Source of the DNA: Bacteroidales bacterium
GTDB taxonomy: Bacteria > Bacteroidota > Bacteroidia > Bacteroidales > P3
DNA: 49,455 bases
NCBI GenBank assembly: GCA_024400545.1
Contig: JAKSMO010000011.1
Location: 1 to 49,455 of the forward strand
Reading direction: 5' to 3'
Position 1 is the stretch's first letter; every line of letters begins with the position of its first letter. The notes under the pieces were generated by a model. The model worked only from the letters and a program-made list of their open reading frames with translations. It did not search any database and was not told where the DNA came from. Position numbers and translations under genes: made by a program. Positions 14,500-39,104 of this stretch are shown here, in pieces.

Positions 14500-14651
14500 G
14501 ACCCACCATACCTTTGCCGAAGTCTCACTCGTTATACCTTAGTTATCCTATATATATACTATAGTTTCGTTGTACGCAATAGGATAAATATAGTATAACT
14601 ATAGTATATTTATAGGATAACGAGCGAAGCTAGGGCGGAGCTATGGTGGGT
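14500..14651. repeat. 152-base palindromic element with tandem AT-rich units
   Basis: Outer arms ACCCACCATA (14501-14510) and TATGGTGGGT (14642-14651); inner arms CTCGTTAT and ATAACGAG; the centre holds repeated TATAGTATA and ATAGGATA units. Lies 42 bases past the 3' end of the outer-membrane protein gene and before the yidC promoter. The whole gap 14355-14692 holds no gene beyond this and the yidC promoter. Confidence 0.8.
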
Positions 14652-14692
14652 TTACAGGGTTGTTTGGGTAGGACTAGGCTATGCCAATGGGG

Positions 14693-15946
14693 CTAAATAA
14701 AGAAGCCGATTTTGATGGGGTAAATCTTAGTGGGGTTGTTCTCGCTCGGGATGAACAGCGGCATGGTGGGCACTTGCAGGAAGATACCGAAACTTTTGAA
14801 CGACATTTCCAGTCGGACGTCCAGTTTGAAGGGATTGAGATCATCTTTGATGTCGGTTTTGTCCTGCGGATTGCGCCCCGCGGTGTGGAATTCGTGTTTC
14901 AGTCCGGTGTGCTTACCAGTCCAACCCAGAGCCGGAATGGCCATAAGCCCAACACGGAAACCTTTGTTCCGATAAGCAATACCCACGGGCAGTTGCACAT
15001 AGCGTGTCACAAACCGAGAGCTGTAATATCCGCCGGGAGTGTTATTCTCGGTTGCCACAAAAGCATTGTTTTCAAAGGTGACATAAGGGTTGTTGAATTT
15101 ATACACATCCGACTCATATCCAATGCCTACGTATGTTCTGAAGTGCTTGGTTTTCACCAATTCGTACTTTGTGCAGAGCTGATAGCTGCTGAAAGAAGTG
15201 CGCAAGTCGTAGCCCGGTGCGCTTATACCCATGAGGCCATTGAAAGGCGTTGAACCCCAATTGTTGAAAGCCCAGTGGAAGTCGATGTCGGTTCGGTCGG
15301 ACGAGTCGTATTCCTTCTTTTTCTTTTGATTCTGGTTGCCGCTTTGCTGGTTCTGCTGGTCTTTAATTGGTTCAAATTTTTTTGCTGCACTGACGGCACC
15401 TTGATGCCTTACCGTCGACAAGAGTCCAAACGTGGCTCCCGTGGCAAGCTCCTTAGACCGCTTAGACAATTGGACCCAAGTCTTTAAGAGCGTAACATCG
15501 CCTTTTTCCACCATTTTTTCCACAAATAAGTCAAGTCCGGCCTCAAATTCTTCGGCGATGTCGGATTCGAGCATGTAACAACGTACATTCTGGTCGGTAA
15601 CATCATTTATGTGAACAACATACAGACTCACGTTTGGATCGCTGATAAACATTGTGTTGCCTTCGAAATGGATATGCTGCAGGCAGCCTCCAGTCTTCTC
15701 AAGGCTCACGGCCTTCACATACTGATTCACTGAGTCGTTCACCAGCATTACCACGCAGTCTTTCATGGAATTCTCCACTTTGGCCACCGAGCCTTGGAGC
15801 TCTGCTTTGCAACTCACAATGTCGCAAACGCCCGGAGTCGTCCAACTGCCCGTGATGCAGTTTCTGGTTTCTTGGTTGAGTTTGGCCTGCGCCAGGGTGG
15901 CAAATGCCATCAAGCAGCACAGTGCGATAGAGAAAATCTTTTTCAT
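14693..15946 (-). CDS. Exported beta-barrel outer-membrane protein
   Basis: 417 residues with a signal peptide (1-21, ending LAQA). The N-terminal half (about 22-190) has several cysteines and no domain I recognise. After a low-complexity linker (QNQQSGNQNQKKKKEY, about 205) the C-terminal half has alternating beta-strands with aromatic residues (YVGIGYESDVYKF, YVQLPVGIAYRNKGFRVGL), like PorT/OmpA-type barrels of Bacteroidota, ending in a hydrophobic strand IYPIKIGFFI. It lies downstream of the sigma and anti-sigma genes, 223 bases apart, and may be their target; that is inference from position. Confidence 0.75.
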   Translation of the reverse strand: MKKIFSIALCCLMAFATLAQAKLNQETRNCITGSWTTPGVCDIVSCKAELQGSVAKVENSMKDCVVMLVNDSVNQYVKAVSLEKTGGCLQHIHFEGNTMFISDPNVSLYVVHINDVTDQNVRCYMLESDIAEEFEAGLDLFVEKMVEKGDVTLLKTWVQLSKRSKELATGATFGLLSTVRHQGAVSAAKKFEPIKDQQNQQSGNQNQKKKKEYDSSDRTDIDFHWAFNNWGSTPFNGLMGISAPGYDLRTSFSSYQLCTKYELVKTKHFRTYVGIGYESDVYKFNNPYVTFENNAFVATENNTPGGYYSSRFVTRYVQLPVGIAYRNKGFRVGLMAIPALGWTGKHTGLKHEFHTAGRNPQDKTDIKDDLNPFKLDVRLEMSFKSFGIFLQVPTMPLFIPSENNPTKIYPIKIGFFI

Positions 15947-15996
15947 ATTGATAACGATTTAATTATTAAGGTGGGTTCTATAAATTCATTTCTTGT

Positions 15997-16100
15997 GATT
16001 TTGATTGGATTGTCGAGCAGATTGCTGTGCGAAGCGAGGGCGCATAGCGGGCTATGCAACCGAGTGACAAGCAGCAAGATGCCGACAAGGCTTCAAAATC
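15997..16100. repeat. Long imperfect hairpin between anti-sigma and barrel genes
   Basis: A 104-base imperfect inverted repeat. Matching blocks: GATTTTGA/TCAAAATC at the outer ends, TTGTCG/CGACAA, TTGCTG/CAGCAA, and a central perfect hairpin GCATAGC-GGG-CTATGC-like (16043-16056). Lies past the anti-sigma gene and before the barrel protein gene. Confidence 0.7.
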
Positions 16101-16169
16101 GCTGAAAAGATTTCTATTACCCATCATTATTGTTTCTTTTGTCTAATCGGTGAATTTGTAGAACTCACC

Positions 16170-16958
16170 TTAACTAAATATTACGCTGAGCGCCTCGCGA
16201 AAGGACTCGGTTTTTTCCATAATACGGTCGTAAGCCAGCTTGGCTTCATACCCTTTGACCACCATGTTCACCATCTGTTCGGTGGAAGGGCGGTAGCGGT
16301 TGGGCACAGCTGCAAATTGCTCAGTATCGTCTGGCGTTTTCACTTCAGCCACATTCTCCTCCGGCGTGGATAATAGGAACTCTATTTCTCGGTAAAGGGC
16401 GGCTTCAAGGTCTTCTTCCTCAATTACTTCCGCCACCAAAGGTTCGGGAGCGAAGGTTTGCAGAATCTCTTCTTCAATGGCTGGCTCAAGCTGTTCTTCG
16501 GCAACTGCTTGTTCAATGACTTCGGCAATATCAGGTGTTGAGTAAACTGCTTGTGGCTTTACGACAAGGGTTTCTTCGGACTCAATCTTTTTTTGCATCG
16601 GCAACACCTTTACCGCAGGTTTGGTTGCGGACACTTGAGTCACAACGGGTTCTACCTTACTATTGTGCAAGGCAAAGGTGGTTCCCACTGCTACGAGCAC
16701 CACGGCTGCGGCCGACCAGCGCCAATGCGTGGGCCCGATGCGAAAAGGTGTGGCTTCTGGATGCTTGAGACTCTCTTTGTCGGCAAAGACAAGTGCCTCG
16801 TCCTTTTCGATTATAGGGGCTTCGGCATAGAGCGCCAGTTCCTCGGCCAGCTCGGAGTGCTGGGCCATAAAGTCCTCCACCTCTTTCCTTTCTTTTGGGC
16901 ATAAGGCACCTTCTAGATATTGAAGGAAATAAAGCTCGTAGTTGTCGGTGGTAATCAT
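16170..16958 (-). CDS. Probable membrane anti-sigma factor
   Basis: 262 residues. Cytoplasmic N-terminus (1-78) with a helical zinc-free anti-sigma-like pattern (YELYFLQYLEGALCPKERKEVEDFM), one membrane segment (about 80-97), then a long acidic, low-complexity periplasmic part rich in E, V and A, and a helical C-terminus. Its start overlaps the sigma gene stop by 4 bases (ATGA), which argues for coupled expression and a partner role. The layout fits anti-sigma factors of Bacteroidota, but no FecR domain is visible. Confidence 0.75.
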   Translation of the reverse strand: MITTDNYELYFLQYLEGALCPKERKEVEDFMAQHSELAEELALYAEAPIIEKDEALVFADKESLKHPEATPFRIGPTHWRWSAAAVVLVAVGTTFALHNSKVEPVVTQVSATKPAVKVLPMQKKIESEETLVVKPQAVYSTPDIAEVIEQAVAEEQLEPAIEEEILQTFAPEPLVAEVIEEEDLEAALYREIEFLLSTPEENVAEVKTPDDTEQFAAVPNRYRPSTEQMVNMVVKGYEAKLAYDRIMEKTESFREALSVIFS

Positions 16959-17476
16959 ATATGATATTCTTTTAATTGTCGTTTTAAAGCGACGCGAGCA
17001 CGGAAGATATACACCTGCACTTGTTGGTCGCTTATGTTGAGTATGTTTGCTATTTCTTTGTAAGAATATCCCTCTACGTCACGCAGTTGCACACATTCGC
17101 GTTGCACTTGCGGCAGGGTGCTCATGGCTCGGTTGATGGCTTCTTTGAGGTCGAAGCTGTCGTCGGGTGCCAAAGATTCCTCCTGCGTGTTGCCTTGGGC
17201 GCTACGCACCTTGTCGTATCGCATTCGGCTTATCAGGTGGTTGTGGACTACGCTCAGAAGAAAGGCCTTGCCCTTTTCCCAACGTACCTCCTCGCGGTGC
17301 TCCCACAATTTGGCAAAAGCTTCCTGCACAGCATCTTTGCAACACTCAGCATCGTCGCAGCATGAGCACGCAAAGCGGTAAGCATCATCCGCCCAGAGGT
17401 CCACTCCCTTGTTATATTCCTTACAATTCAATGTTTTTTTCAAGTTTTCTGCTATATAGACGCACAACACCCCCAT
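16955..17476 (-). CDS. ECF-type RNA polymerase sigma factor
   Basis: 173 residues from ATG 17476; an in-frame ATG at 17539 would add 21 residues, but that stretch holds a -7-like element and a direct repeat and does not look coding. Region 2 contains DAVQEAFAKLWEHREEVRWEKGKAFLLSVVHNHLISRMRYDK; region 4 contains TLPQVQRECVQLRDVEGYSYKEIANIL and the ISDQQVQVYIFRARVALKRQ helix. It directs RNA polymerase to a small set of promoters. Odd: five cysteines in ten residues, C37-S-C39-C40-x4-C45-C46, in the first helices of region 2. A redox or metal role is inference. The anti-sigma gene overlaps its stop by 4 bases. Confidence 0.92.
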   Translation of the reverse strand: MGVLCVYIAENLKKTLNCKEYNKGVDLWADDAYRFACSCCDDAECCKDAVQEAFAKLWEHREEVRWEKGKAFLLSVVHNHLISRMRYDKVRSAQGNTQEESLAPDDSFDLKEAINRAMSTLPQVQRECVQLRDVEGYSYKEIANILNISDQQVQVYIFRARVALKRQLKEYHI

Positions 17477-17493
17477 TTTATTACACCTAAGGG

Positions 17494-17539
17494 CAAAAAT
17501 ATTTCCATCAGTCCACCAGATGTGCCAATTATGTGCCAA
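17494..17539 (-). promoter_or_regulatory. Candidate promoter and direct-repeat site of the sigma operon
   Basis: Plus-strand ATGTGCCAA occurs twice, 11 bases apart (17520-17528 and 17531-17539), one helical turn, so both copies face the same side of DNA. Minus-strand TATTTTTG (17501-17494) follows as a possible -7 element, 18 bases before the sigma start. No TTTG at the usual distance; the repeats may be an activator site or an ECF-specific promoter part. Confidence 0.4.
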
Positions 17540-17745
17540 ACACGTGGGATTTTACACATTATTCATAATGTTTTTTGTGAGTTTTTATACATTTTTCATG
17601 GCTAACTGAGAAAATATGACGGGAGATTGGCCAGAAAAACACTTTCCAAACGCCCCCAACAAGGCTTGATAACACTATGTTGAAAAATATTTATTATAAA
17701 TTCAAAATATTTATGTAACTTTGCCACATCAAAAATTCTAGTATC

Positions 17746-18159
17746 ATGATCACTAAAAAAGGTAGTTCTTTACTCATTTTGTTGGCAGTTACGCCACTTC
17801 TCTTTATGGGTTGCAAGCATGCACAACCTGCCGAGGAACCTATTTTTGACACCGTTGTGGTGGAACCCGAACTTGAAATTGAAGAGGAAGAACCCGAAAT
17901 TATCGAAGAAACTCCTGCTCCCGCACCTGCTGTTGTGCGCCCGGCAGTGAAGAAAGAACCTGTCAAGGACGAGGTGCTCTACATCTCCGGTCATGGCGCC
18001 AACGGTCGTGTTTGGGGTCATATCACCATGAAGGGCAACAAAGGCACTGGCACCGTTACCGACGAGCACGAGAACGCGCTCACCGTTAGCTGCACCCGCC
18101 AGGGCGAAGAGCTGATTTGCTACGACCAGAATAGCCGTCAGTACATCTTCCGCTTGTAA
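17746..18159 (+). CDS. Small exported lipoprotein
   Basis: 137 residues. Lipoprotein signal with lipobox LLFMGC (C23). Then an acidic, proline-rich linker (about 30-75, repeated EEEEPEI and PAPAP), and a C-terminal globular part (about 75-137), VLYISGHGANGRVWGHITMK to the end, probably beta-rich. I do not recognise the domain. It is divergent from the sigma operon with 269 bases between; a TAACTTTG element lies at 17716-17723, 23 bases before the start. A hairpin (18185-18214) follows the stop. Confidence 0.8.
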   Translation: MITKKGSSLLILLAVTPLLFMGCKHAQPAEEPIFDTVVVEPELEIEEEEPEIIEETPAPAPAVVRPAVKKEPVKDEVLYISGHGANGRVWGHITMKGNKGTGTVTDEHENALTVSCTRQGEELICYDQNSRQYIFRL

Positions 18160-18184
18160 TCATCCCCTTTCAGGCGTACTTTAT

Positions 18185-18214
18185 GTGGCATGGCAGTTTA
18201 TCTGTCGTTGCCAC
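18185..18214 (+). terminator. Possible weak terminator after lipoprotein gene
   Basis: Hairpin GTGGCA/TGCCAC with inner GGCAG/CTGTC around loop TTTAT, 26 bases past the stop; followed by only TTTA, so termination would be weak. Confidence 0.4.
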
Positions 18215-18263
18215 TTTAAGTGCATCTATCAACTGAGAATAATAATTAAAGTTTATCATAATA

Positions 18264-19112
18264 ATGAAATCTACACAAGAACTTCAAACCATCGCTTCGC
18301 AGGTGCGTCGCGATATTCTCCGTATGACCACCGCCGCCAAATCGGGTCACCCGGGCGGCTCTCTCGGCACTGCTGATTGGATGACTGCCATGCAGTTCAA
18401 CATCATGAACCACGATCCCGAGCATTTCACCATGGACGGCAAGGGGCAGGACATGCTCTTCGTTTCGCAGGGCCACATCACTCCCGTTATCTATAGCACC
18501 ATGGCCCGTCGCGGCTTCTTCCCCGTGCAGGAACTTAGCACTTTCCGTATTTTTGGCACCCGTCTGCAGGGTCACCCCTCCACCGCACACAATCTTCCTG
18601 GCATCCGCATGGCTAGCGGTTCGTTGGGACAGGGCATGAGTGTGGGTATTGGTGCTGCTCTTGGCAAAAAGATGACTGGCGACAATACCTTGGTTTATAC
18701 CCTCCATGGCGACGGCGAGCTTCAGGAAGGTCAGATTTGGGAGGCTGCCATGTTTGCCGGTGCCAAGCACGTTGACAACCTTATCTCTACCATCGACTAC
18801 AACCGCCAGCAGATCGACGGCACCACCGACCAAGTGATGGACCTCGGCGACCTCAAGGCCAAGTTCGAATCTTTCATGTGGAAAGTCATTGTCATCAAGA
18901 ACGGTAACGATATGCAGCAGGTGCTCGACGGCATGGCCGAGGCTAAGGCTCAGGCCGGCAAGGGTATGCCCGTGTGCGTCATCCTTACCACCGAGATGGG
19001 CTATGGCGTTGATTTCATGCAGGGCACCAACAAGTATCACGGTGCTGTGCTCTCTGCCGACGACCTGCCCAAGGCTCTGGCTCAGATTGAAGAAACCCTT
19101 GGCGATTTTTAA
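18264..19112 (+). CDS. Transketolase, N-terminal subunit
   Basis: 282 residues, covering the thiamine diphosphate-binding half of transketolase. Motifs: SGHPGGSLGTADWM (about 28), GSLGQGMSVGIGAALGKK, and the TPP motif GDGELQEGQIWEAAMFAG ending IDYN. Together with the C-terminal subunit gene (20617-21570) it would form the heterodimer that moves two-carbon units in the pentose phosphate pathway. The two halves are separated by 1.5 kb holding a VWA protein gene, which is unusual; split subunits are normally adjacent. Short GTGAA-type repeats follow the stop. Confidence 0.95.
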   Translation: MKSTQELQTIASQVRRDILRMTTAAKSGHPGGSLGTADWMTAMQFNIMNHDPEHFTMDGKGQDMLFVSQGHITPVIYSTMARRGFFPVQELSTFRIFGTRLQGHPSTAHNLPGIRMASGSLGQGMSVGIGAALGKKMTGDNTLVYTLHGDGELQEGQIWEAAMFAGAKHVDNLISTIDYNRQQIDGTTDQVMDLGDLKAKFESFMWKVIVIKNGNDMQQVLDGMAEAKAQAGKGMPVCVILTTEMGYGVDFMQGTNKYHGAVLSADDLPKALAQIEETLGDF

Positions 19113-19165
19113 TCAGTGAATGGTGAACAGTGAACGGTGTACAGTGATGGGTGAACTGTGATCGG
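19113..19165. repeat. Single arm of GTGATC-type repeat
   Basis: Reiterated GTGAACAGTGAACGGTG and GTGATGGGTGAACTGTGATC units, like the left arm of the palindromes at 21584 and 32640 but without their core and right arm. Lies directly after the transketolase N-subunit stop. Confidence 0.5.
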
Positions 19166-19184
19166 CAATGAAAATAATAAGATA

Positions 19185-20543
19185 GTGAAACGTATCTTGC
19201 TCATAGTAATGCTTATGGCCATCGGCTTTGTTGCCATGGCGCAGAAAAGCACTGCGGCACCGCAGAAGACGCGTGTGCTACTCGTCCTCGACTGCTCTCA
19301 GAGCATGTGGGATAAGTGGCAGAGCGACTCCAAGATTAAGGTGACGCAGAAGGTGTTGTTGCGCCTGCTCGACAGCATTCAGTCCCGGCCCGATGTGGAG
19401 GTGGCTTTGCGCGTATTCGGTCATCTGAACGACCACGCCTATGGCACCAGCCTCGAAGTACCCTTCGAGAAAAACAACATCTACAAGCTGCAGAGCAAGA
19501 TTAAGACTCTTGTACCCAACGGCGGATGCAACGCGGCCACGGCGCTCAGCAAATCGCTCAACGACTTTCCCCAAGACCCCAAATCACGCAACATCATCGT
19601 TGTCATCACCGACCATATTAATGATCCTGATGGCGACATCGTGGAGGTGACTGAAAAGATCGAGGAGAGCGGCAACGTGGTTCGCACCGAATTCATAGGC
19701 ATTGGCGACAAAAAGAATTTCCAAAACACCGACGACATCCTTCTGGACTTCGCCTGGAACGAGGACTTTCTGTTTGACGCGCTGAATCGAACCTTCAACA
19801 CCGTTAGTAAGATTGCCCACCTGCCTTTAACCTTGGAAGATGCTAATGGACTTTTTGAGACCGACATCCCCGTGGCCTTCTTCGACCATAGGACCCATGC
19901 TCTCAAATTTGCCACCATCTACCACTATGACACTGAGAATGGTATCGACACCTTGCAAGTGGACCCGTTGGTCGATTACGACGTGGTCGTTTACACCAAG
20001 CCCAAGCAGGTATTCCGCAGTCACCGTTTCAACGATGGCATTGTCACGGCACTGCCCGCCTACCAAGGAAGCCTTTCCATACAGTTGGTCAACAAGCGCA
20101 CTCAGTTTCAGGTGCCCGACTACACCGTACTAGTGCGGCAGCACGATAGCACGGCTATTCTTGCCAGCCAGCCGATAGGAGCCAAGGCCAATTACCTTGT
20201 AGGCCGATACGATATTGATGTACTCACCACTCCCGTTACCCATCTCGGCAATGTGATCATCCGTCAGGGTGCCAACACCAGCCTGCAGATACCCATGCCG
20301 GGGCAGCTGGCCCTCAGCAAGCCCAAAGTGGCAACCACAGGAAGTGTCTTTGTGCTTAAAAACGGTACCATGCAATGGGTCTGCGACCTCAATCCTACCA
20401 CCTTCGACGAGCGTATCGTGCTAATGCCCGGTAGCTACCAGGTAGTCTTGCGCCCTGTCGAGGCCACAAAGTACTCCGCCGTCCGCACAGCTGGTTTCAC
20501 CATCACCTCGGCCCAACAAACAGCCGTGAATTTAGAAAAATAG
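19185..20543 (+). CDS. Exported VWA-domain protein
   Basis: 452 residues from GTG 19185 (MKRILLIVMLMAIGFVAMAQ); an upstream GTG at 19158 adds nine residues without improving the signal peptide. The signal ends near residue 20. A von Willebrand A domain covers about residues 25-200 with the metal site DCSQSMW (DxSxS). The rest (about 215-452) looks beta-rich, with several repeated beta-sandwich-like parts. Function unknown; VWA domains bind protein partners through a metal. It lies between the two transketolase subunit genes on the same strand, with a hairpin after its stop. Confidence 0.85.
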   Translation: MKRILLIVMLMAIGFVAMAQKSTAAPQKTRVLLVLDCSQSMWDKWQSDSKIKVTQKVLLRLLDSIQSRPDVEVALRVFGHLNDHAYGTSLEVPFEKNNIYKLQSKIKTLVPNGGCNAATALSKSLNDFPQDPKSRNIIVVITDHINDPDGDIVEVTEKIEESGNVVRTEFIGIGDKKNFQNTDDILLDFAWNEDFLFDALNRTFNTVSKIAHLPLTLEDANGLFETDIPVAFFDHRTHALKFATIYHYDTENGIDTLQVDPLVDYDVVVYTKPKQVFRSHRFNDGIVTALPAYQGSLSIQLVNKRTQFQVPDYTVLVRQHDSTAILASQPIGAKANYLVGRYDIDVLTTPVTHLGNVIIRQGANTSLQIPMPGQLALSKPKVATTGSVFVLKNGTMQWVCDLNPTTFDERIVLMPGSYQVVLRPVEATKYSAVRTAGFTITSAQQTAVNLEK

Positions 20544-20551
20544 TTGAATCG

Positions 20552-20586
20552 ATATTTGTTAGTTTGGCAAGCGAACCAACAAATAT
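20552..20586. repeat. Hairpin between VWA and transketolase C genes
   Basis: ATATTTGTT (20552-20560) pairs perfectly with AACAAATAT (20578-20586), and the stem extends inward with one mismatch and one G-T pair. It could stop or process the transcript between the two genes; no T-run follows on either strand, so it is not a classical terminator. Confidence 0.6.
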
Positions 20587-20616
20587 AATTAATAATAGAA
20601 TAAATACATATAATAT

Positions 20617-21570
20617 ATGAAACCCTACGAAAACAAGAAATCCATGGAACTCCGCGCCGGTTTCGGCCAAGGTCTCGTTGAGGCCGGCCAGGCCAACGAG
20701 AACGTTGTGGCTCTCAGTGCCGACGTTTGCGGTTCCGTAAAGATCAATGATTTTGCCAAAGCTTTCCCCGAGCGTTTCGTGCAGTGCGGTATTGCCGAAG
20801 CCAACATGGTAGGCATTGCGGCAGGCATGTCGCTCTGTGGCAAAGTGCCCTTCCTTGGTGGTTTTGCCGAGTTCGTCACCGGTCGCGTCTATGACCAGAT
20901 TCGTCAGGTGGTGTGCTATTCCAACAAGAATGTGAAAGTCTGTGGTTCTCACGCCGGTATCTCCCTCGGTGAAGATGGCGCCACCCACCAGACTATGGAG
21001 GATATCGCCCTGATGAAAGTGCTGCCCAATATGACCGTTCTTGTGCCTTGCGACTACAACCAGGCCAAGGCTGCCACCCTTGCTGCTGCCGAGCACGTAG
21101 GTCCTGTCTATCTCCGTCTGGGTCGTTCCAAGATGCCCAACTTCACCGAAGAAGGTGCTAAGTTCGAAATCGGCAAGGCTCAGCTTATGAACGAAGGTAA
21201 GGATGTCACCCTCTTTGCTTGTGGTCATCTGGTTTGGGAAGCCCTCGAAGCTGCCAAGGCTCTTGAAGCCGAAGGTATCAGCGCCGAGGTTATCAACATC
21301 CACACCATCAAGCCCCTTGACGTTGAGGCTATCGTGGCTTCTGCCAAGAAGACCGGTGCCGTTGTTACTTGCGAAGAGCACCTCTTCAACGGTGGTATGG
21401 GCGACAGCGTAGCACAGACCCTGGCCCTTCACTGCCCCACTCCCATGGAGTATGTGGCTGTTGACGACAAGTTTGGCGAGAGCGGTACCCCCGATGAGAT
21501 GCTCACCAACTATGGTCTTCGCGCCAACAACATCGTTGAGAAAGTGCATGCTGTTTTGAAGAGAAAATAA
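20617..21570 (+). CDS. Transketolase, C-terminal subunit
   Basis: 317 residues, covering the pyrimidine-binding and C-terminal domains of transketolase. The conserved glutamate is in RFVQCGIAEANMVGIAAGM; SHAGISLGEDGATHQTMEDIALM and YLRLGRSKMPNF are typical. It pairs with the N-terminal subunit encoded 1.5 kb upstream. Full length for the family. It is followed by TTGATAAATATCAGT and a palindromic repeat, which may end the transcript. Confidence 0.95.
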   Translation: MKPYENKKSMELRAGFGQGLVEAGQANENVVALSADVCGSVKINDFAKAFPERFVQCGIAEANMVGIAAGMSLCGKVPFLGGFAEFVTGRVYDQIRQVVCYSNKNVKVCGSHAGISLGEDGATHQTMEDIALMKVLPNMTVLVPCDYNQAKAATLAAAEHVGPVYLRLGRSKMPNFTEEGAKFEIGKAQLMNEGKDVTLFACGHLVWEALEAAKALEAEGISAEVINIHTIKPLDVEAIVASAKKTGAVVTCEEHLFNGGMGDSVAQTLALHCPTPMEYVAVDDKFGESGTPDEMLTNYGLRANNIVEKVHAVLKRK

Positions 21571-21583
21571 TTGATAAATATCA

Positions 21584-21665
21584 GTGATAGGTGATCTGTG
21601 AGCTGTGATCTGACAATACATTTGTCGGTTCACAGATCACTCATCACAGATCACACATCACTCAC
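21584..21665. repeat. Palindromic repeat with conserved core, copy 1
   Basis: Left arm of GTGATCTGTGA-type units, core CTGACAATACATTTGTC (21610-21626), right arm of TCACAGATCAC-type units. The same core occurs at 32640-32707. Lies after the transketolase C-subunit gene. Confidence 0.8.
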
Positions 21666-21669
21666 TACC

Positions 21670-22203
21670 ATGCATATCGCTGTTTTTTGTGCTTCCCGCA
21701 TGGGTAGCAACCCCAAATACCAATCAACTGCCCAAGAGCTTGGGCAGTTGGTTGCTTTGCATGGCCACACCCTGGTCTATGGTGGCAGCAACCTCGGTTA
21801 CATGGGCGTCGTTTCCACCGCCGCGCTTGATGCTGGCGGTCGAGTTATCAGCATCATCCCTACTATCTTCTCGCCCGAGGTTATCAACTCCCAGCCCCGT
21901 GCCGAAACACGACTGGTCACTTCTATGCAGGAGCGTAAAAGCCAGATGATTGACCTGTGTGATGCCTTTATTGCCTTGCCAGGTGGCATAGGCACTCTCG
22001 ACGAGGTGTTTGAAGTGCTTATGTCCAATCAGCTCAATCTTTGCAACAAACCTATGGCGCTGCTCAATATCGATGGCTATTTCGACCCGCTGCTCCAGCA
22101 AATTGACCGCATGATTGCCGACGGGCTCCTCCTTCCGCAATCCATCCGGGCACTTAGCGTTGCATCTACTCCCGCAAGCCTCCTGGCCGAGATAGAGAAA
22201 TAA
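21670..22203 (+). CDS. LOG-family (TIGR00730) Rossmann-fold protein
   Basis: 177 residues from ATG 21670; the 24 codons upstream in frame fall inside the palindromic repeat and are not coding. Motifs of the LOG/lysine decarboxylase-like family: GGSNLGYMG (about 35) and PGGIGTLDEVFEVL (about 105). Characterised members release adenine or cytokinin-like bases from nucleoside 5'-monophosphates. In gut bacteria the physiological role is probably nucleotide salvage or repair; that is inference. Length is normal. Confidence 0.9.
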   Translation: MHIAVFCASRMGSNPKYQSTAQELGQLVALHGHTLVYGGSNLGYMGVVSTAALDAGGRVISIIPTIFSPEVINSQPRAETRLVTSMQERKSQMIDLCDAFIALPGGIGTLDEVFEVLMSNQLNLCNKPMALLNIDGYFDPLLQQIDRMIADGLLLPQSIRALSVASTPASLLAEIEK

Positions 22204-22241
22204 CCCGCCATAACGCACAACTCAGAAACTCTCAATACAAA

Positions 22242-22928
22242 TTGGCCTACCTTCTCACCAAGTCAAAATACATTCGCGGACTCCAATGTCCCAAGGCTAT
22301 GTTCCTCGATGTCCATGCGCCCCATTTGGCTTATTATCCACCCGAAACCTTGGCCCGTTTCCGGAGGGGACGCGACTTTGAAAAGAGCTTCAAGGATACT
22401 TTCCCTCATGGCATTGACATCAGTGCCCGACTTAAAGGCAATGTTTCGGCCTATCCGCAACTCACGGCCGACTTATTGTCTGCCCCAGGAGAGGTGGCTC
22501 TCTTCGAGGCCGGTTTCCTCTACAACGATGTGTTGGTACTTGCCGACGTGGTGCACAAAACCGCCGAAGGCATCGTCACCATCTTCGAGGTCAAAAATAG
22601 TGTTCATGTCTCCGACACTTTCCGCAACGACGTCGCCATCCAGCACTATGTCATCTCCCATGCCTTGCCGGCTATTGTGGTGGCCGACATTTTCTGCCAG
22701 GGTCTTACGCTCCAAAACTTCTTTGTTCTCTTCAACGACGGTCACGATGGATTCCTTCGCGAAGACCTCATTCAGCCTAGTCAGTCGCAACATTCTGTAA
22801 TAGAGCAAAACATAAACCATTTCAAGCAAGTTATCCTTGGTCAGGAACCCTCAGTTCCCATGTCGCCCCATTGCGATGCTCCCTATGCTTGTCCCTACAA
22901 AGGCTATTGCAGAAAACGCGGGGAGTGA
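22242..22928 (+). CDS. Cas4/Dna2-like PD-(D/E)XK nuclease with Fe-S cysteines
   Basis: 228 residues from TTG 22242; no ATG precedes the conserved start LLTKSKYIRGLQCPK. Nuclease residues: aspartate in VLADVVHK and glutamate-lysine in FEVKNS, then NDVAIQHYVI (QxxxY). One cysteine near the N-terminus (C17) and a C-terminal group in HCDAPYACPYKGYC match the Fe-S layout of Cas4/Dna2-like and DUF2779 proteins. These cut single-stranded DNA ends. No CRISPR array or cas gene is in the window, so a role in DNA repair or an unknown defence is possible. It lies 38 bases after the LOG gene. Confidence 0.82.
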   Translation: MAYLLTKSKYIRGLQCPKAMFLDVHAPHLAYYPPETLARFRRGRDFEKSFKDTFPHGIDISARLKGNVSAYPQLTADLLSAPGEVALFEAGFLYNDVLVLADVVHKTAEGIVTIFEVKNSVHVSDTFRNDVAIQHYVISHALPAIVVADIFCQGLTLQNFFVLFNDGHDGFLREDLIQPSQSQHSVIEQNINHFKQVILGQEPSVPMSPHCDAPYACPYKGYCRKRGE

Positions 22929-22943
22929 AGCGTAGAGAAAGTA

Positions 22944-22961: not shown

Positions 22962-23025
22962 TTTGTAGTCTCAACACAACATTCAAACCCCGTCTGCGTT
23001 ATGATTTTAAAAATAATGCACACTC

Positions 23026-23709: not shown

Positions 23710-23792
23710 TAGGAATCGTTGAGCAGCCTCAGGAAGGCTTGATTTCCAAACGTTGAATTCTTTGAGTTACTTCAAATTCACAAATTAATCCG

Positions 23793-25467: not shown

Positions 25468-25492
25468 ATTGTGTTGATTTGTTGTTCTGGAA

Positions 25493-25685
25493 GTTTAGTG
25501 GTTTGTAAGTTTAGTGGTTTATAAGTTTAGTGGTTTATAAGGTTATAGAGTTGTTGCACTTAATCTTATAAACCCATAACCCCATAACCGTATAAACTAA
25601 TAACCCCATAAACCTTATAACCCCATAACCCCATAACCTTATAAACTAATAACCTCATAAACCCATAACCTCATAAACCTCCTTC
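25493..25685. repeat. Palindromic array of TTTATAAG / TTATAAACC units
   Basis: Left arm: three copies of GTTTAGTGGTTTATAAG-like units and GGTTATAG. Right arm: about ten units of ATAACCCCATAAACC and TTATAAACTAATAACC type. The arms are reverse complementary. Lies between pstB and mgsA. Not coding. Confidence 0.8.
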
Positions 25686-28261: not shown

Positions 28262-28510
28262 GGTGTTTGGTCGCTTAGATGCTTAGTTGTTGAGGTGCTT
28301 AGATGCATGGTTGTTGAGGTGCTTAGATGCATGGTTGTTGAGGTGCTTAGATCTTAGTTGTTTAGTTGTTTAGATGCTTAGTTGTTTAGTTGTTGTCTCA
28401 ACGACTAAGCAACAAAGCTATTACACGACTAAGCAACAAAGCTATCACACGATTAAGCAACTAAGCTATCACAAGATTAAGCAACTAAGCCTCTCAACAA
28501 CTAAGCCACT
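28262..28510. repeat. Large palindromic array, 24-base period, between pstS and pstC
   Basis: Left arm: about five units with a 24-base period built on GAGGTGCTTAGATGCATGG and TTAGTTGTT. Centre near 28396-28402 (GTTGTCTCAAC). Right arm: four 24-base units built on ACGACTAAGCAACAAAGC, reverse complementary in part to the left. Lies just past the pstS stop and before pstC. Confidence 0.85.
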
Positions 28511-28512
28511 AT

Positions 28513-29620: not shown

Positions 29621-29720
29621 GAATGTAGATTGCAGATTGTAGAATGGGCTGCCACACTACATGTAATCCACCACCCCGTACCCGGAACTCTACAATCTAC
29701 AATCTACATTCTACAATCTC
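29621..29720. repeat. Palindromic array of GTAGATT units after oprP
   Basis: Left arm GAATGTAGATTGCAGATTG (29621-29639) and right arm of reiterated CTACAATCTACAATCTACA (29690-29708) are reverse complementary around a loop of about 45 bases. The stop codon of oprP (29711-29713) lies inside the right arm. Confidence 0.75.
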
Positions 29721-30709: not shown

Positions 30710-31251
30710 TTTTTGTTCGTTTACAACGTGTTGCGCAACAACGTGTCATTTAAAAATCTGCCACAAAAGTACACCATCTCCATTACAGCAATGTTACAAC
30801 CCCCAATTGTAACACATTCTTAATAAGGACACAGGCTCCCCTCTATCACGGAGTGCCTAATTGATAAATATCAGTCTGCCATACCTCCATGACCAATGAA
30901 GAACTTAAATGAAAAAGACCATCGATTGAAATAACTTATTTCTTAAACTTGAAGTAAAGGCAAGCCTTAGGTGGCGACTTGCCGACTGTGTAGCTGGAGT
31001 CCGGGTTCGGCCACGGATTATGATCGATAGAATCATAGTGGCATCGCATCAGATTCTATTCATTGCGGAAATAAAATGGCTACTCGTTGTATAGTACTAA
31101 TACGATTAAAATAGGGAACATGTGGGATGGATAAGGGATTTGATCTGAAGCCACTGTAGTGCTACTGCACAAATAAGGGGGAAGGTTTGCGTGAGGGGGA
31201 CGTGAACGCAAATGTTTGCAAGATCTGGTTGTCCACGCTAGATTCTACTAG
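30710..31251. other. Intergenic region oprP / MATE
   Basis: Holds the oprP promoter and Pho box (30764-30814). From 30815 to 31251 no gene is seen. TTGATAAATATCAGT at 30860-30874 repeats the sequence at 21571-21585. A stretch GTCCGGGTTCGGCC near 31000 resembles a tRNA T-arm, but no acceptor stem or anticodon arm surrounds it. Confidence 0.5.
30764..30798 (-). promoter_or_regulatory. Promoter and Pho box of oprP-pst operon
   Basis: Minus-strand promoter: TTG (30791-30789), 17 bases, TACTTTTG (30771-30764). The box, read on the plus strand, is CATTACA (30781-30787), GCAA, TGTTACA (30792-30798), an 11-base-period direct repeat nearly identical to the one before phoB. A further TGTAACA at 30808-30814 forms an inverted repeat with it. 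The box overlaps the -33 region, where an activator would sit. Confidence 0.65.
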
Positions 31252-32628
31252 CTACATTCTGCTACTATCGCTCTCCATTTCGCCCAATTTTCTTACTATC
31301 CATACGGAGAAGGGGATGGAGAAGAGGCAGGTGGCTATGTCGGCCACGGGCTGGGTGTACATCACTCCGTCGAGACCATAGAACAGGGGCAGGATGAAGA
31401 GGGCGGGGAGGAAGAAGAGTCCCTGCCGACCTATGCTGATAAGGGTGGAGCGGATGGGCATGCGGATGACTTGGAAGAGCATATTGGTAGTGGTGGAGAA
31501 GCCTATGAGGGTGAAGGTGAGGCACTGGAGACGCAAAACGCGGGTGCCGATTTGGAGCATCATGGGGTCTTCGGCACGATAGATGCTGATGATTTGGGGC
31601 GCAAAGGTATAGCCGATGACGCATATGAGGGCTAGGATAGTGGTGGAAGCGACAGCGGTGAAGATGTAGGATTGGCGCACACGGAGGTAACGCTGGGCTC
31701 CATAGTTGAATCCTGCCACGGGTTGGAACCCTTGGTTGATGCCCAACACAAAGGAGAAGGCGAACATCATGGTGCGTGACACTACGGCGAAAGCTGCCAC
31801 GGTTGAGGCCACGTGCTCGGGAGCGGCATAGCGGGCGGCGGCATAGTTGAGGCAGATGACTGAGGTGCAGTTGAACACCTGTCGGCAGAGGGAAGGCAGA
31901 CCTCCCATGAGGATTTCGTAATAGTCCCGGGGAGTGGGTCGGAAACGGCGGATGTCGAGGTGCACACTACTCGGCCGGGTTGTGCCCCAAAGCAGCAGCA
32001 CCCAAGAGACAAACTGACTGATGGCCGTGGCCAGCGAAGCACCGGTGACGCCCCAACCGAGCACCGGGATGAAGAGTGCGTCGAGGATAATGTTGAGCAC
32101 CGCACCTGAGATGATGCCCACCATGCCGTAATTGGCATTGCCTTGGAGTCGGAGCTGGTTGTTGAGGGTGAAGGCGGTGAGCATGAAGGGTGTGGCATAG
32201 ACGATGTAGCGCATGTATTCGGCTGCCGCCGGCACTACATCGGGGGTGGCACCCAGCAGCTCGGCCAGGCCGTGGAGGTTGACCCCAAAGCCCAGAGACA
32301 TGCAGATGCCGATGAGTAGGGGGGTGAAGAATCCGACGGCGGCCATGGTGGCTGCTGTGTCGAACTTGTGGGCACCCAGTTGGCGCGAGATGTAGTTGCC
32401 CGACCCATGACCAAAGAAGAAGCCCAAGGCCTGGATGACCACCATATAGGCAAAGGAGATGCCTACGCCGGCTGTGGCCTCGGTGCTGAGGTGGCCCACA
32501 AAAGCGGCATCCACCACGTTGTAGAACGATGTGACCATCATGCTCAGCGTGGTGGGTATGGCCAGGCGCAGCACAAGTCGGCGCACTGGCATTTGTGTCA
32601 TTTCTTGGTATTTGTCTTCGAGGGTCAT
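31252..32628 (-). CDS. MATE family efflux transporter
   Basis: 458 residues, twelve membrane segments. The N-terminal motif RLVLRLAIPTTLSMMVTSF and the repeated half near residue 235 (MGGLPSLCRQVFNC) are typical of MATE pumps; FNYGAQRY is the second-half signature. It probably exports cationic drugs or metabolites using a sodium or proton gradient. Substrate unknown. Length is normal. Palindromic repeat copy 2 lies just upstream of its start. Confidence 0.93.
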   Translation of the reverse strand: MTLEDKYQEMTQMPVRRLVLRLAIPTTLSMMVTSFYNVVDAAFVGHLSTEATAGVGISFAYMVVIQALGFFFGHGSGNYISRQLGAHKFDTAATMAAVGFFTPLLIGICMSLGFGVNLHGLAELLGATPDVVPAAAEYMRYIVYATPFMLTAFTLNNQLRLQGNANYGMVGIISGAVLNIILDALFIPVLGWGVTGASLATAISQFVSWVLLLWGTTRPSSVHLDIRRFRPTPRDYYEILMGGLPSLCRQVFNCTSVICLNYAAARYAAPEHVASTVAAFAVVSRTMMFAFSFVLGINQGFQPVAGFNYGAQRYLRVRQSYIFTAVASTTILALICVIGYTFAPQIISIYRAEDPMMLQIGTRVLRLQCLTFTLIGFSTTTNMLFQVIRMPIRSTLISIGRQGLFFLPALFILPLFYGLDGVMYTQPVADIATCLFSIPFSVWIVRKLGEMESDSSRM

Positions 32629-32639
32629 GATTTTTTTTA

Positions 32640-32707
32640 GTGATCAGTGATGTGTGATGAGTGATCTGACAGTACATTTGTCTGTTCACTCATTACTCAT
32701 CACTCAC
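32640..32707. repeat. Palindromic repeat with conserved core, copy 2
   Basis: Left arm GTGATCAGTGATGTGTGATG, core CTGACAGTACATTTGTC (32666-32682), right arm of TCACTCATTACTCATCACT type. The core differs from copy 1 (21584-21665) by one base in 17. Lies past the SIMPL gene and before MATE. Confidence 0.8.
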
Positions 32708-32713
32708 ACAACA

Positions 32714-33448
32714 TCATTTCACGGAATAGGTGAGGCGCATATTGATGGAGGCGCGTTTCTTTTTGGAGGTGGTGTTGAATGTGCCGCCCCAGGAGTAGTC
32801 TTCGTCGGTGGAGTTGGGGGCAGTGATTTGGAATACACCCATGTTGGCAGTTTGCAGCTTGCCCAGATGCGAGCCGGCACTTTTGGCAATGGTTTCGGCA
32901 CGGTTCTTTGCATTTTCGGTGGCTTCGGCCAGCATTTCTATCTTAAGGTCGGCCAGCTTGGTGTAGTAATAGTTGAGGCTGTTGTTGTCGATATTGATGC
33001 CGTGCTCGAGGAGCTCGGAAATCTCGCGTGAGATTTTCTCAATCTTATCGACATCGTTGCTCTCCACGCGCACGCTCTGGTTCAGGCGGTAGCCAAGGAA
33101 AGTATAGTAACCGTTGCCGTTGTTGTAGTGGTATTCGGTTTCTTTGTTGCAGTCGAGAGAACGGAAGTCGATCTCGGCCTCGGCAATACCTTTTTGTTTG
33201 AGGTAGTCGCGCATTATGTTGTTGACTTTCTTGATTTCGGCGTAGCCTTCTTTCATGCCGTCATTGAGCACATTGTAGGAAATGTTCCAGACGATAAGGT
33301 CGGAATCAAAGTCGCGCTCGCAGCCGCCCACGACGGATACGGTTTTGGCACCATGGCGAGCTTCAACGAATTTTTTGCCACCAATCCAAACGGACACGAC
33401 CATGCAAAGGCCGAGGATAGCGGTGGCGACGATAGCAGATTTTTTCAT
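32714..33448 (-). CDS. SIMPL-domain (DUF541) exported protein
   Basis: 244 residues from ATG 33448 (MKKSAIVATAILG); the longer frame upstream adds no signal. An N-terminal membrane segment (about 4-22) is a signal or anchor. The SIMPL/DUF541 domain covers about 35-240, with KTVSVVGGCERDFDSDLIVW at its start and the helical ATENAKNRAETIAKSAG near residue 190. The family occurs in envelope proteins; function is not settled. It is followed by palindromic repeat copy 2. Confidence 0.87.
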   Translation of the reverse strand: MKKSAIVATAILGLCMVVSVWIGGKKFVEARHGAKTVSVVGGCERDFDSDLIVWNISYNVLNDGMKEGYAEIKKVNNIMRDYLKQKGIAEAEIDFRSLDCNKETEYHYNNGNGYYTFLGYRLNQSVRVESNDVDKIEKISREISELLEHGINIDNNSLNYYYTKLADLKIEMLAEATENAKNRAETIAKSAGSHLGKLQTANMGVFQITAPNSTDEDYSWGGTFNTTSKKKRASINMRLTYSVK

Positions 33449-33482
33449 AGTTATAGTTTTTTTTAATTTTGTTATAAAAAAG

Positions 33483-33527
33483 AATGAAGTTTTGAGAAAG
33501 GGTTTAACCAAGCATCAAAACTTCATT
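33483..33527. repeat. Perfect 13-base inverted repeat upstream of SIMPL gene
   Basis: AATGAAGTTTTGA and TCAAAACTTCATT flank a 19-base loop. A second imperfect hairpin, with GTAAA/TTTAC and GGGCA/TGCCC blocks, follows at about 33563-33613. Both lie between the YD-repeat-like and SIMPL genes. Confidence 0.7.
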
Positions 33528-33647
33528 ATGTTGGGTTAAGGGTTGTTGGACTAATTGTTTGGTTGAAGGGCAGAGCCAGTTTGTGTAAAAGAGTTTACAA
33601 GTTTGTTGGTTGCCCCTTCTGCTAGGCCTATAACCTTATAGCCTCCA

Positions 33648-34478
33648 TTAGTATGCGGGGAATGCGATTTCGCGTTCGATAACCTGGTAGGCTACGTTGT
33701 TGCGGTAAATGGTTTGACGCACCCAGTTGTCATCCTCATCGTACTCAAACACATAGGAGTGTTTCCAGTTGAGGTGCTCGTCGTAGTTGAAGGAGGAGAG
33801 CTCAATGAGGTTGTCGTGGTCGTCGTAGTAGTAGGTGGTGAGGGCCACGAGGAAGTCGTCGGCATCGTAGAAACGCCATTCGATGCGGTTGCCGTGGCTG
33901 TCGTATTTATAGAGGTAGCGCTGCATAAGCTCGCCGTCGCGGTCGTAGAACTCCATTTCGGTATTGTTGCCGGAAGCGTCATATTTATATACGCGTTTCT
34001 CGGTGAGGGTGCCGTCGGGGGCAAAGCTCTGCTCTTCCACAAGTCGGTTGTTCTCGTAACGGGAGGTCTCTTTCTTGGTCATGTGTTCGCCCATGAACAC
34101 TTTGCGCTCAATGCGGTTGCCGTTTTTGTCGTTGAGATAAGCGGTGCGGCCGGTGAGCTGTTTGGCACGATTGTACTCGTTCCAACCCAGCGCATAGCCA
34201 TGAACGTCAAAGTAGTAAGAGTACCACGTGTATTCGCCGTCTTTGGTGCGGTATTTGTCTTGGAAATTGCCGCGCTTGTCGAAAGTGATGGAGTCGATGC
34301 ACATGAGGCGACGGCCACCGTTGCGGCCACCATGGATGTCGTAGGTGTATTCGATAACATACACTGCATTGCCGTTGATGCCCATTTCCTGACGAGAAGA
34401 TTTGCGGGTTCTGGGGCCTGCCACCGCGCTTGCGATAACCAGCAACATGAGTGCGAGAGTGAAAAATCTTGTCTTCAT
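33648..34478 (-). CDS. Exported YD-repeat-like protein
   Basis: 276 residues with a signal peptide (1-20, ending AVAG). The body is a row of short strands of type YKYDASGNNTEMEFYDRDG and YKYDSHGNRIEWRFYD, repeated six or seven times from about residue 75 to 260. This resembles the YD/RHS-type repeat that forms beta-spirals in extracellular proteins. There is no toxin tip, so it is not a full RHS protein. Function unknown. Not clearly linked to its neighbours. Confidence 0.75.
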   Translation of the reverse strand: MKTRFFTLALMLLVIASAVAGPRTRKSSRQEMGINGNAVYVIEYTYDIHGGRNGGRRLMCIDSITFDKRGNFQDKYRTKDGEYTWYSYYFDVHGYALGWNEYNRAKQLTGRTAYLNDKNGNRIERKVFMGEHMTKKETSRYENNRLVEEQSFAPDGTLTEKRVYKYDASGNNTEMEFYDRDGELMQRYLYKYDSHGNRIEWRFYDADDFLVALTTYYYDDHDNLIELSSFNYDEHLNWKHSYVFEYDEDDNWVRQTIYRNNVAYQVIEREIAFPAY

Positions 34479-36013: not shown

Positions 36014-36110
36014 GTTCTATTGTTTTTTACATTTATTGTTGACGGCGCAGGGGACAGATTTTAAGCCTTTTACCGCGCCAGCCACTCTACACACTATATT
36101 CTACACTCTT

Positions 36111-37511: not shown

Positions 37512-37726
37512 ATATAATAATTGTTACGTTAAACGTGTAGTCTATAATTAAATATGCATATTTTTGTCGGCAAGCGACTAAATAAAGCAAATGCAAAAAT
37601 ACAAAAAAAGAGTGATATGGAGAAAATATTTTTGATGATTATTTGCGAGTTGGCTGGTTTATAAGTTTTTGGATAAATAAGCTTAGATGCCTGGCGAAAT
37701 ATTAGTTTATGGGTTTTGCGTGGCAG

Positions 37727-38551
37727 TCAGTTCTTGATTACGTTCAGGTTAAAAGGTGTTAGGCTATTCGCTTCATGCTTATAGGTTGCGGAAACGACCA
37801 TGCGCCAACAACTAAGCAATAAAACGAATAATCCACTAAATACAAAAGGGCCTCCAGATGGAGACCCTTTTGTGTAGGTGCCCGTTGGAATAGTGGTGGA
37901 GGTGCCATTGGTGAAATAAACGGCCTCGTGAGCATTGTTGATCACATATCCGCTTTGTGCGTTGACGCAAAGGCCGGGCTGGCGAGTCACATAGGGTGCG
38001 GCTGCCGGAGCCTCACCTATCACAATCTGCACTGTTCCGTTGTGGAATAGCTGAACCTGCCATTTATACAGGTTAGAGCGTGTTACAGTGTTGTAGGTGC
38101 CAAGGCAAAATTCCACCACGCCCACCGAGTCGCCATTGCTGGCTTGGGTATGCAGGTAGCGTACGTAGTGGTCGGTAGAGCTGTAACCATCGCAGGCAAA
38201 ATAGTTGATTTTGGGTGCGTTGGTGGTGGCAGTGCCCGAGCCAAAGGGATTGGAGTAGGCATTGGTGCCTGTTGCGGAATTGCCCAGGCGCAGGTTGCCG
38301 TCGGTATTCACCGAAAACTGGGTGTAAACATTCTCTCCAAAAGGGAAAGAGAATCCAAGGTCAGTAACTGGTGAGGCTGAACCATCGCCAGCAGAAGCAC
38401 CTATGAGCTGGGTAGCCGTACTGGGAACGTTGATCCACAACGATGCGTTGGTGCCAGTGGCAAAGGTGTACTCGTCCAGGGTCTGAGCCTGCGATGCCAG
38501 CGGTAGCGCAATGGCCACCAAGAGCATCAGTCGAAGTACGTGTTTGAACAT
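37727..38551 (-). CDS. Exported surface protein, probably truncated
   Basis: 274 residues with a signal peptide (1-22, ending SQAQ). Residues 24-225 form one beta-rich domain (TLDEYTFATGTNASLWI, FGENVYTQFSVNTDGNLRLG, YKWQVQLFHNGTVQIVIGE) that in Bacteroidales opens long fibronectin-type cell-surface proteins. Here the frame then changes character: from about residue 227 it runs through a terminator-like hairpin (37842-37873) and into sequence like the intergenic arrays (CAACAACTAAGCAA at 37806-37819). The tail FVFSGLFVLLLSC is hydrophobic. Most likely a deletion joined the N-terminal domain to a downstream terminator. A real membrane tail is an alternative. Confidence 0.7.
   Translation of the reverse strand: MFKHVLRLMLLVAIALPLASQAQTLDEYTFATGTNASLWINVPSTATQLIGASAGDGSASPVTDLGFSFPFGENVYTQFSVNTDGNLRLGNSATGTNAYSNPFGSGTATTNAPKINYFACDGYSSTDHYVRYLHTQASNGDSVGVVEFCLGTYNTVTRSNLYKWQVQLFHNGTVQIVIGEAPAAAPYVTRQPGLCVNAQSGYVINNAHEAVYFTNGTSTTIPTGTYTKGSPSGGPFVFSGLFVLLLSCWRMVVSATYKHEANSLTPFNLNVIKN
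37842..37873 (-). terminator. Terminator-like hairpin inside the surface protein frame
   Basis: Fifteen-base stem, ACAAAAGGG... paired with ...CCCTTTTGT, one G-T pair and a 2-base loop; TATTTAG follows on the minus strand. It covers codons 227-237 of the frame starting at 38551, about 38 codons before the stop. Confidence 0.6.
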
Positions 38552-39104
38552 AACTTTGATAATTTGTTTAATAAATATGGTAATTCTTAATTATGCAGTG
38601 CTATATTGTGTTTATTGCTTAAATCCAATCGTTTATCACCACCTTAGATGGTTTTGTGCAAAAGGTAATAAATTGCAAAGATACAATAAAAATCCAATAA
38701 GCAAGCATTTGTGAATCATGTAGTTATTTAACGAATTGTATTTGGGAAATGCTGCGTTGTCCAATTTGCCCATTCGGGGGAAGGCTGCATAATGCGAATA
38801 GCATAAAGGCTTAGTAGTTGCGACAACAACTAAACCCTACTAAACGGGCTAAATAAAAATACAAATGCAACTCCGTTTACATTATTTATCAATATGCAAT
38901 CGGATGCAAAGATACAAAAAAGCCATTCGGCCGTTATTGTTTATGCCCAGGATTCTTACCGCGCTGGCGAGGGAGTGGACTCGGTCAAGATCCGTAGAAG
39001 TTGCGGTGATCTTGCGGTGATTTTACGGTATGGAACCGCCCAATGACCGTAAGATCACCGTAGGATGTCCGTAGGATTATTGGGATTGGTGGGGTAGAGG
39101 TGGG
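38552..39104. other. Intergenic region with inverted CGGTGATCTT repeats
   Basis: No gene is seen. It holds two TATCTTTG promoter elements, an inverted pair around 38811-38855 (GCTTAGTAGTTG and CAACAACTAAAC), and a palindromic group at 38985-39085 with CGGTGATCTTGCGG and CCGTAAGATCACCG arms. The last lies directly past the 3' end of the lipoprotein gene. Confidence 0.6.
38676..38704 (-). promoter_or_regulatory. Promoter of the truncated surface protein gene
   Basis: On the minus strand, TTG (38704-38702), 18 bases, TATCTTTG (38683-38676), about 125 bases before the start. A second TATCTTTG in a similar context (GCAAAGATACAA) lies at 38914-38907. Confidence 0.6.

Follow-up and report, generated by a model that had tools for sequence, protein, structure and literature searches.

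Repeat-bearing spacers in the window

The window, the whole 49,455-nucleotide stretch of DNA analysed here, is contig C9 of G000, a draft genome of a rumen-type Bacteroidales (2.64 Mb, 105 contigs, 96% complete, 8.3% contamination). Its intergenic spacers carry palindromes and tandem arrays of short units, which a sequence-only reading had described as a class of 3'-end palindromes and had tentatively put down to terminators, RNA stability parts or hairpin-driven slippage. That observation was partly confirmed and its interpretation partly supported. The arrays fall into two period classes, which had been lumped together, belong to families that recur across the genome, and turn over fast, probably through copying errors rather than in the service of a fixed job.

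Judged on transketolase C, the closest named relatives are drafts of ruminant-gut Bacteroidales, among them RUG417, RUG377 and RGIG6831, with protein identity of 80–90% for the best ~15. We reached 120 genomes of the genus and counted unit patterns in 29 congeners. Four genomes were scanned for stems and arrays (G000, G051, G032 and G049), of which G051 is the nearest relative of G000 (86% DNA identity). We read 27% of G000, about half of that in contigs picked for carrying a repeat. The gene calls and the stem score are our own, and the genomes are drafts with contamination. Arrays with periods of 6–9 bp are termed class A and those with periods of 10–13 bp, nearly all 11 bp, class B. The sites in the window are listed below, with z referring to the fold of single-stranded DNA.

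14501..14651, no strand: class B palindrome of 11-bp units (ATAGGATAAAT type), the flanking genes being co-directional; fold of 14510–14650, z –3.05
15997..16105, no strand: imperfect GC-rich palindrome lacking tandem arms, which belongs to a separate dispersed repeat; stem, fold z –0.42
19114..19165, no strand: heptamer array of one arm (CAGTGAA type), not palindromic; from the array scan, absent from the sequence-only reading
20552..20586, no strand: hairpin lacking tandem arms, flanked by a VWA-domain gene and transketolase C; fold z –3.10
21583..21662, no strand: class A palindrome of 7-bp units (GTGATCT type), 3' of transketolase C; fold z –5.68
25491..25679, no strand: class A palindrome of 8-bp units (GTTTATAA / ATAACCCC type); fold of 25488–25613, z –2.33
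28273..28511, no strand: class A palindrome of 8-bp units (GCTTAGTT type); fold of 28270–28511, z –6.90
29621..29719, no strand: class A palindrome of 7-bp units (TGTAGAT type); fold z –7.13
32639..32706, no strand: class A palindrome of 7-bp units (GTGATCA type), loop identical to that at 21583; fold z –4.25
33478..33532, no strand: hairpin without tandem arms; inverted repeat, fold z –4.22
36066..36110, no strand: GC tip (GCGCCAGCC) followed by a degenerate TCTACAN-type heptamer arm; from the tip list, likewise new
39001..39077, no strand: class B palindrome of 11-bp units (TTGCGGTGATC / ACCGTAGGATC); fold z –6.44

The palindromes reported earlier were all recovered, with inverted-repeat arms at 14501, 21583, 25493/25500, 28353/28355, 29621, 33478 and 39004, folds at 20552 and 32639, and an entry in the stem list at 15997. 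Seven of these sites have the proposed tandem-unit build (five with units of 7–8 bp, two with units of 11 bp) and lie, as claimed, 0–41 nt after the preceding stop. The sites at 15997, 20552 and 33478 lack tandem arms, and the last of them stands ~115 nt from the preceding stop, closer to the next start. The idea that each site has a unit of its own did not survive: the 21583 and 32639 elements have a common unit and loop, and families recur across the genome. Folding of single-stranded DNA gave z between –3.0 and –7.1 at eight of the ten sites; outside that range were 25488–25613 (–2.3) and the unexceptional 16004–16105 (–0.4). One arm of the 28273 element folded alone gave z –0.17.

The octamer arrays at 28273–28511 (both arms) and 25561–25660 also have a higher-order period of 24 bp, and the 24-mers differ between the two arms of the former. 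The 15990–16110 repeat has further copies at G000:C75:12074–12194 and G000:C61:7–72, 74% and 78% identical.

Excess, periods and placement of stems and arrays

Against expectations from dinucleotide shuffles, both stems (score of at least 18) and tandem arrays (score of at least 14) were in excess in the spacers. Stems occurred in 8/33 spacers of the window (0.0 expected), in 19/133 spacers of G000 stretches unselected for repeats (1.1 expected) and in 24/183 spacers on contigs with an element related to that at 25491 (0.2 expected). The corresponding figures for arrays were 5/33, 10/133 and 36/183, with 0.0 expected in each set. Stems and arrays co-occurred in all three sets, with odds ratios of 14.7, 7.3 and 4.9 (p = 0.02, 0.005 and 0.0003, respectively). 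The excess over shuffles was seen in four genomes of the genus. The suggestion that the pattern is general in this genome is supported, and it extends to the genus as far as the sampling goes.

The periods of spacer arrays in the four genomes peaked sharply at 7 bp (64 arrays), 8 bp (32) and 11 bp (77). Periods off these peaks were few, namely 6 (6), 9 (10), 10 (4), 12 (1) and 13 (0), and longer periods were mostly multiples (14, 16, 22 and 24). Coding sequence held 44 arrays in total over the same genomes. Units of 7–8 bp are therefore concentrated in spacers, as is characteristic of intergenic heptamer and octamer repeats. By spacer type, and in sums that take in the window and the repeat-selected contigs, class A arrays numbered 72 in 135,648 bp of co-directional, 5 in 22,751 bp of convergent and 9 in 58,981 bp of divergent spacer, which corresponds to 5.3 per 10 kb in co-directional vs 1.5 in divergent spacers; divergent spacers thus hold 9/86 of these arrays. 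The proposed bias toward 3' ends did not emerge: class A lay closer to the stop than to the following start in 40/71 co-directional spacers, which is not significant (23/36 in G000, p = 0.13; 12/22, 4/8 and 1/5 in the other genomes).

This placement bears on the possibility that the elements act as RNA, in factor-independent termination or in protection of the upstream 3' end, in which case any strong hairpin would suffice and its units would be free to vary. Strong folds at eight of the ten window sites, window sites that abut stops, and arms that covary in a congener family (see below) would fit such a role. On the other side, class A is not significantly closer to stops, and terminator-like matches (a GC-rich stem followed by a T run) fall on none of the ten sites, so that the intrinsic terminators considered by the sequence-only reading were set aside. 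Terminator-like matches occurred at about the expected frequency in the regions searched (20 vs 19.3 expected in 14300–34200; 2 vs 1.8 in 38500–40300), and Rfam 15 gave no match in the window above the gathering threshold.

Class A arrays might alternatively serve as translation stop traps, stop-bearing units whose length is not divisible by three closing all reading frames. Stop density in class A was 0.099, compared to 0.084 in letter-shuffled units (both strands, ~3 standard deviations). This effect is small, is equal on both strands and has no counterpart in class B (0.0493 vs 0.049), and congeners carry 9-bp arrays; we consider the idea very improbable. A reading of them as three-letter-alphabet arrays was also rejected, as extreme GC skew was found in 61% of class A arrays vs 46% of arrays made from random spacer units.

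Unit families and their spread over the genus

The 25491 element matched 22 other places in G000 (24 of 27 match rows; two places matched on both strands). Three unit patterns gave families nearly private to the species. The pattern CTACATTCTACANTCTACA had 14 matches in G000, none in a further 79 genomes from the order, and a single match in each of 2/29 congeners; AACTAAGCAACTAANC had 18 matches in G000 and a single one among the 29 congeners; and CTACGGTNATNNTACGG had 41 in G000 and 5 in the congeners, all in one genome. Other units behaved differently. The heptamer of the 21583 site, GTGANCTGTGANCTGTGA (the GTGA heptamer), matched once in G000 and was present in 9/29 congeners, with 49 matches in G051 and 82 in G050. 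The core TACGGT-N5-TACGG occurred 19 times in 714 kb of G000 and 54 times in 400 kb of G049. These two patterns rule out the view, drawn from the first three, that all units are private to their species, and we narrowed the claim accordingly. Family copy number differs strongly between species, with some families nearly private and others patchily common. Class A comprises at least four families in G000, and no single unit dominates the genome.

In a thin survey of another 20 congeners, noncoding arrays numbered 25 in 331 kb and were spread over 11 of the 20 genomes; part of these arrays have a common GTGAATTT octamer. In other families and the sister genus (20 genomes, 312 kb, with two stretches unreadable), there were 2 arrays, one of them a plain AATT repeat. 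As far as sampled, the repeat trait marks the genus.

Dispersal on this scale could reflect non-autonomous mobile elements of the MITE (miniature inverted-repeat transposable element) or REP (repetitive extragenic palindrome) kind, moved in trans. Besides the dispersed families, near-empty sites in relatives and one tip found with different arms would agree with mobility. No common ends were recognised among the elements, however, and they vary widely in length and unit and often have mismatched arms. A search of G000 (96% complete) for PF01797, the Y1 transposase family and the one transposase family sought, gave no match; the family was detected in 5/14 control genomes. We regard mobility of this kind as unlikely. 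The specific case of REPs with their RAYT transposases was rejected, as the Y1 transposase was not found and no family has a conserved 20–40 bp palindrome, its length, unit and arms all being variable.

Turnover at orthologous junctions

Past the stop of the transketolase C gene (tktC), the window has the heptamer palindrome and G051 a single-arm 9-bp array; in G032, G059, G020 and G061 only a few bases separate this stop from the next start, without an array, and another clade has palindromes of AATCTTGTA units at this junction. We compared 113 syntenic gene pairs (43 with G051, 46 with G032, 5 with G020 and 19 with G049), here calling arrays at a score of at least 13. At least one species had an array at 19/113 junctions. 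In 14 of the 19, only one side reached the threshold, two of the partners having weaker repeats (score 10.5). Both sides had arrays of different units in 3/19, and in the remaining 2/19 the other side had a shorter form of the same unit.

As an example, the spacer with the 29621 element (window 29569) measured 142 nt vs 14 nt in G032, further junctions gave 218 vs 20 and 285 vs 34 nt, and in one reverse case the lengths were 8 vs 81 nt. At the window 28191 junction, G020 has a hairpin whose arms hold about two 8-bp units each, compared to the long element of the window, and G032 has none. The array at L133:4399 and that of its G032 partner (L201) differ by one heptamer; the called spacer lengths there are unlike because of the gene starts. 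The G032 spacer matching the 19114 site has no array, and the 20552 hairpin is missing from the corresponding spacers of G051 (22 nt) and G032 (29 nt). Elements often absent or single-armed at the matching junctions of relatives speak against a role as RNA, and RNA stability parts, the second of the earlier readings, are a poor fit to elements that relatives lack or have rebuilt at the orthologous junction.

In several congeners the tktC frame extends past its usual stop (L018, L021 and L026; L152, L154, L159 and L161), by 86–94 codons in the latter group. In some the extension runs into a zinc-ribbon-like protein, which suggests a gene fusion at this junction.

Covariation of arms

In L144, L146 and L162, which carry the AATCTTGTA-unit palindromes at the tktC junction, an A-to-G change stands at the matching place in three left-arm units, with T-to-C opposite. 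Covariation was tested in this one congener family, using 7 of 13 rows; those dropped were four second copies (from another collection), L146 and L163. Both sides had changed in 5/24 pairs (17/500 shuffles were as high), and 93.4% of cells paired (1/500 shuffles). The covariation score was 0.187 vs 0.115 in shuffles (0/500 as high), and slid partners gave 0.028–0.087. The arms of an imperfect inverted repeat thus changed together in these 7 sequences. Such co-change of units, within and across arms, favours homogenisation.

GC-rich tips and mosaic arms

Many elements consist of an array, a GC-rich mini-hairpin and a second array, and the two arrays are usually unlike. The tip GGC-GNNA-GCC or its complement was found in the sampled spacers 15 times in G000 (0.95 expected), 26 times in G051 (0.55), 5 times in G032 (0.6) and 4 times in G049 (0.75), some of the G051 copies being tandem duplicates. 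GNNA is not the sole tip, as other loops (GGTT, GGGG) were also in excess in G051 (30 vs 7). The loops of the window's five class A sites are different and do not match it. The d(cGNNAg) sequence forms an unusually stable DNA tetraloop. Tips touched an array in 24/31 cases in G000 and 23/35 in G051, compared to 11% and 10% of random spacer positions.

Among 22 two-armed tips, several of them tandem copies within one spacer (L169, L107), 6 had complementary arms (score of at least 12), 15 did not (9 or less) and 1 fell between. Because tips touch arrays and arms are mostly non-complementary, we take the long palindrome to be one outcome of this array-tip-array plan. In co-directional spacers of three genomes, GNNA was split evenly between the coding and template strands (20 vs 20). 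An RNA GNRA tip was ruled out, as the GNNA loops have C, T or G as their third base and show no strand preference. A tip strand independent of transcription and arms that fail to pair at most two-armed tips weigh further against an RNA role, which, taking both sides together, we judge unlikely.

Class B arrays

The 11-bp class may have an origin of its own. In three genomes out of four, class B shows a preference for divergent spacers (10/43 in G000, 11/30 in G051 and 13/27 in G049). Such arrays may well be binding sites for a DNA-binding protein, unrelated to class A, with one helical turn per unit and a preferred word that drifts between species. Of 12 opposed pairs of a 17-base pattern in G000, 10 are spaced at 47–48 bp and two at 59 bp; the 400 kb read of G049 hold repeated copies of a nearly uniform core of four units; and TACGGT-N5-TACGG is present in both G000 and G049. 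The class was found in only 1/28 divergent spacers of G032, however, G051 uses other words, and the fixed spacing may also come from copying; the protein itself is putative. We hold this explanation of the 11-bp class to be a serious possibility, somewhat short of probable.

In G049 (L205–L224, e.g. L207:4641 and L221:7890), each 20-kb stretch holds on average about one copy of a nearly uniform intergenic element of at least four 11-bp units (CCGTACATGCA type), possibly an array with an architectural or operator role.

A proposed copying origin of the arrays

We favour, at about an even chance, the explanation that these are intergenic satellite-like repeats made by slippage and fold-back template switching and spread by recombination. 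Arrays would grow through slippage, whole units at a time. Fold-back (quasipalindrome) template switching would copy arm onto arm, so that unit changes reach both. Recombination or template switching between copies would move arrays to new loci and yield chimeras with unlike arms. Selection would mainly limit where class A is tolerated, in co-directional spacers and not in divergent, promoter-bearing ones. The analysis establishes the excess, the two period classes, the recurring families, the mosaic arms, the gain and loss of arrays at junctions and, in one congener family, the covariation of arms; we infer these agents and the absence of a conserved function. Hairpin-driven slippage is also the best-fitting of the three earlier readings, because species differ by one heptamer, a relative has a short hairpin of the same unit, unit changes are common to both arms, and gains at one junction were independent.

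Several observations weigh against this explanation. Period peaks as sharp as these are not expected from slippage alone, and the spread of arrays between loci has no identified agent. Tips of G032 touch an array in 3/8 cases only (random positions 5%). In the covariation test, further pair types numbered 8, below all shuffles (mean 9.8). All comparisons are between species, with no event observed. Finally, GTGA heptamers are common over much of the genus and the TACGGT-N5-TACGG core is frequent in G049, which does not fit a simple replacement of units species by species.

The same sharing lowered the probability that we assign to a dedicated, genus-wide process acting on DNA, which would write and homogenise arrays in steps of 7–8 or 11 nt around a very stable DNA hairpin tip (GGC-GNNA-GCC) as core. 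If this were true, the dominant unit would shift between species, most of which would have their own intergenic repeat set; we think it quite improbable. Loss of the SbcCD hairpin nuclease was rejected as the cause of the repeats, as SbcD scored over the cut-off in the repeat-rich G051, yet gave no match in G049, where strong palindromes are few. At E 0.001, SbcD had no match in G000 (96% complete), G061, G003, G049 and G113, and other congeners were positive.

Relation to known repeats

Intergenic tandem heptamers in opposed arrays are known from the GGGAATC repeats of Xanthomonas (Rehm 2015, PMC4692102), where 70 and 75 cases of opposed arrays form inverted repeats. A single G-rich unit is discussed there as quadruplex-forming, whereas the repeats described here come in many units (7, 8 or 11 bp long), carry GC-rich tips and mosaic arms, and differ between congeners. 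The TAACTGA heptamers of Beggiatoaceae, Cyanobacteria and five Bacteroidetes (MacGregor 2015, PMC4679880) are likewise dispersed, intergenic and patchy, with no known agent of spread, and some related species lack the array at the matching junction. They comprise one unit, mostly right before start codons and almost never inverted, which is not so here. REP/RAYT elements (PMC3733652, PMC2817692) are also dispersed intergenic palindromes, but are described as single palindromes of 20–40 bp, in contrast to tandem-unit arms in a genome where the Y1 transposase was not found. Quasipalindrome template switching (PMC7202029, PMC8604942) is a proposed route by which imperfect arms become alike; the accounts cited concern single inverted repeats, whereas the present case concerns tandem arrays in dispersed families. 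A Porphyromonas gingivalis MITE with a minisatellite (PMC4596501) offers a tandem repeat within a dispersed Bacteroidales element, though common terminal repeats were not recognised here. Palindromes in general are reported in a survey to be over-represented in most phyla (PMC4060949). We recognised no earlier description of the pattern in Bacteroidota in the open-access (PMC) literature.

The bacterial intergenic heptamers that we found in print have one unit per lineage. In this genus the form (period, palindrome, GC tip) is retained, but a large part of the unit set changes from one species to another, a bacterial parallel to satellite turnover, and the 120 genomes reached allow direct tracking of repeat birth, spread and homogenisation. 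Because strong palindromes between genes can turn over at matching junctions even when their arms covary, covariation is weaker as the sole evidence of RNA function.

Neighbouring genes

The sites had been said mostly to follow exported or transport genes. Pfam searches of ten neighbouring proteins identified a PstB-like and a phosphate-binding-like protein as transport proteins; transketolase is not one, and four proteins had no match. A second PstS-like gene, at G000:C46:19873–20916 (L093), is 89% identical to that of the window, as is the gene of G020, and is either a paralogue or draft contamination. The VWA-domain gene splits the genes for the N- and C-terminal parts of transketolase (window 18264–21570).

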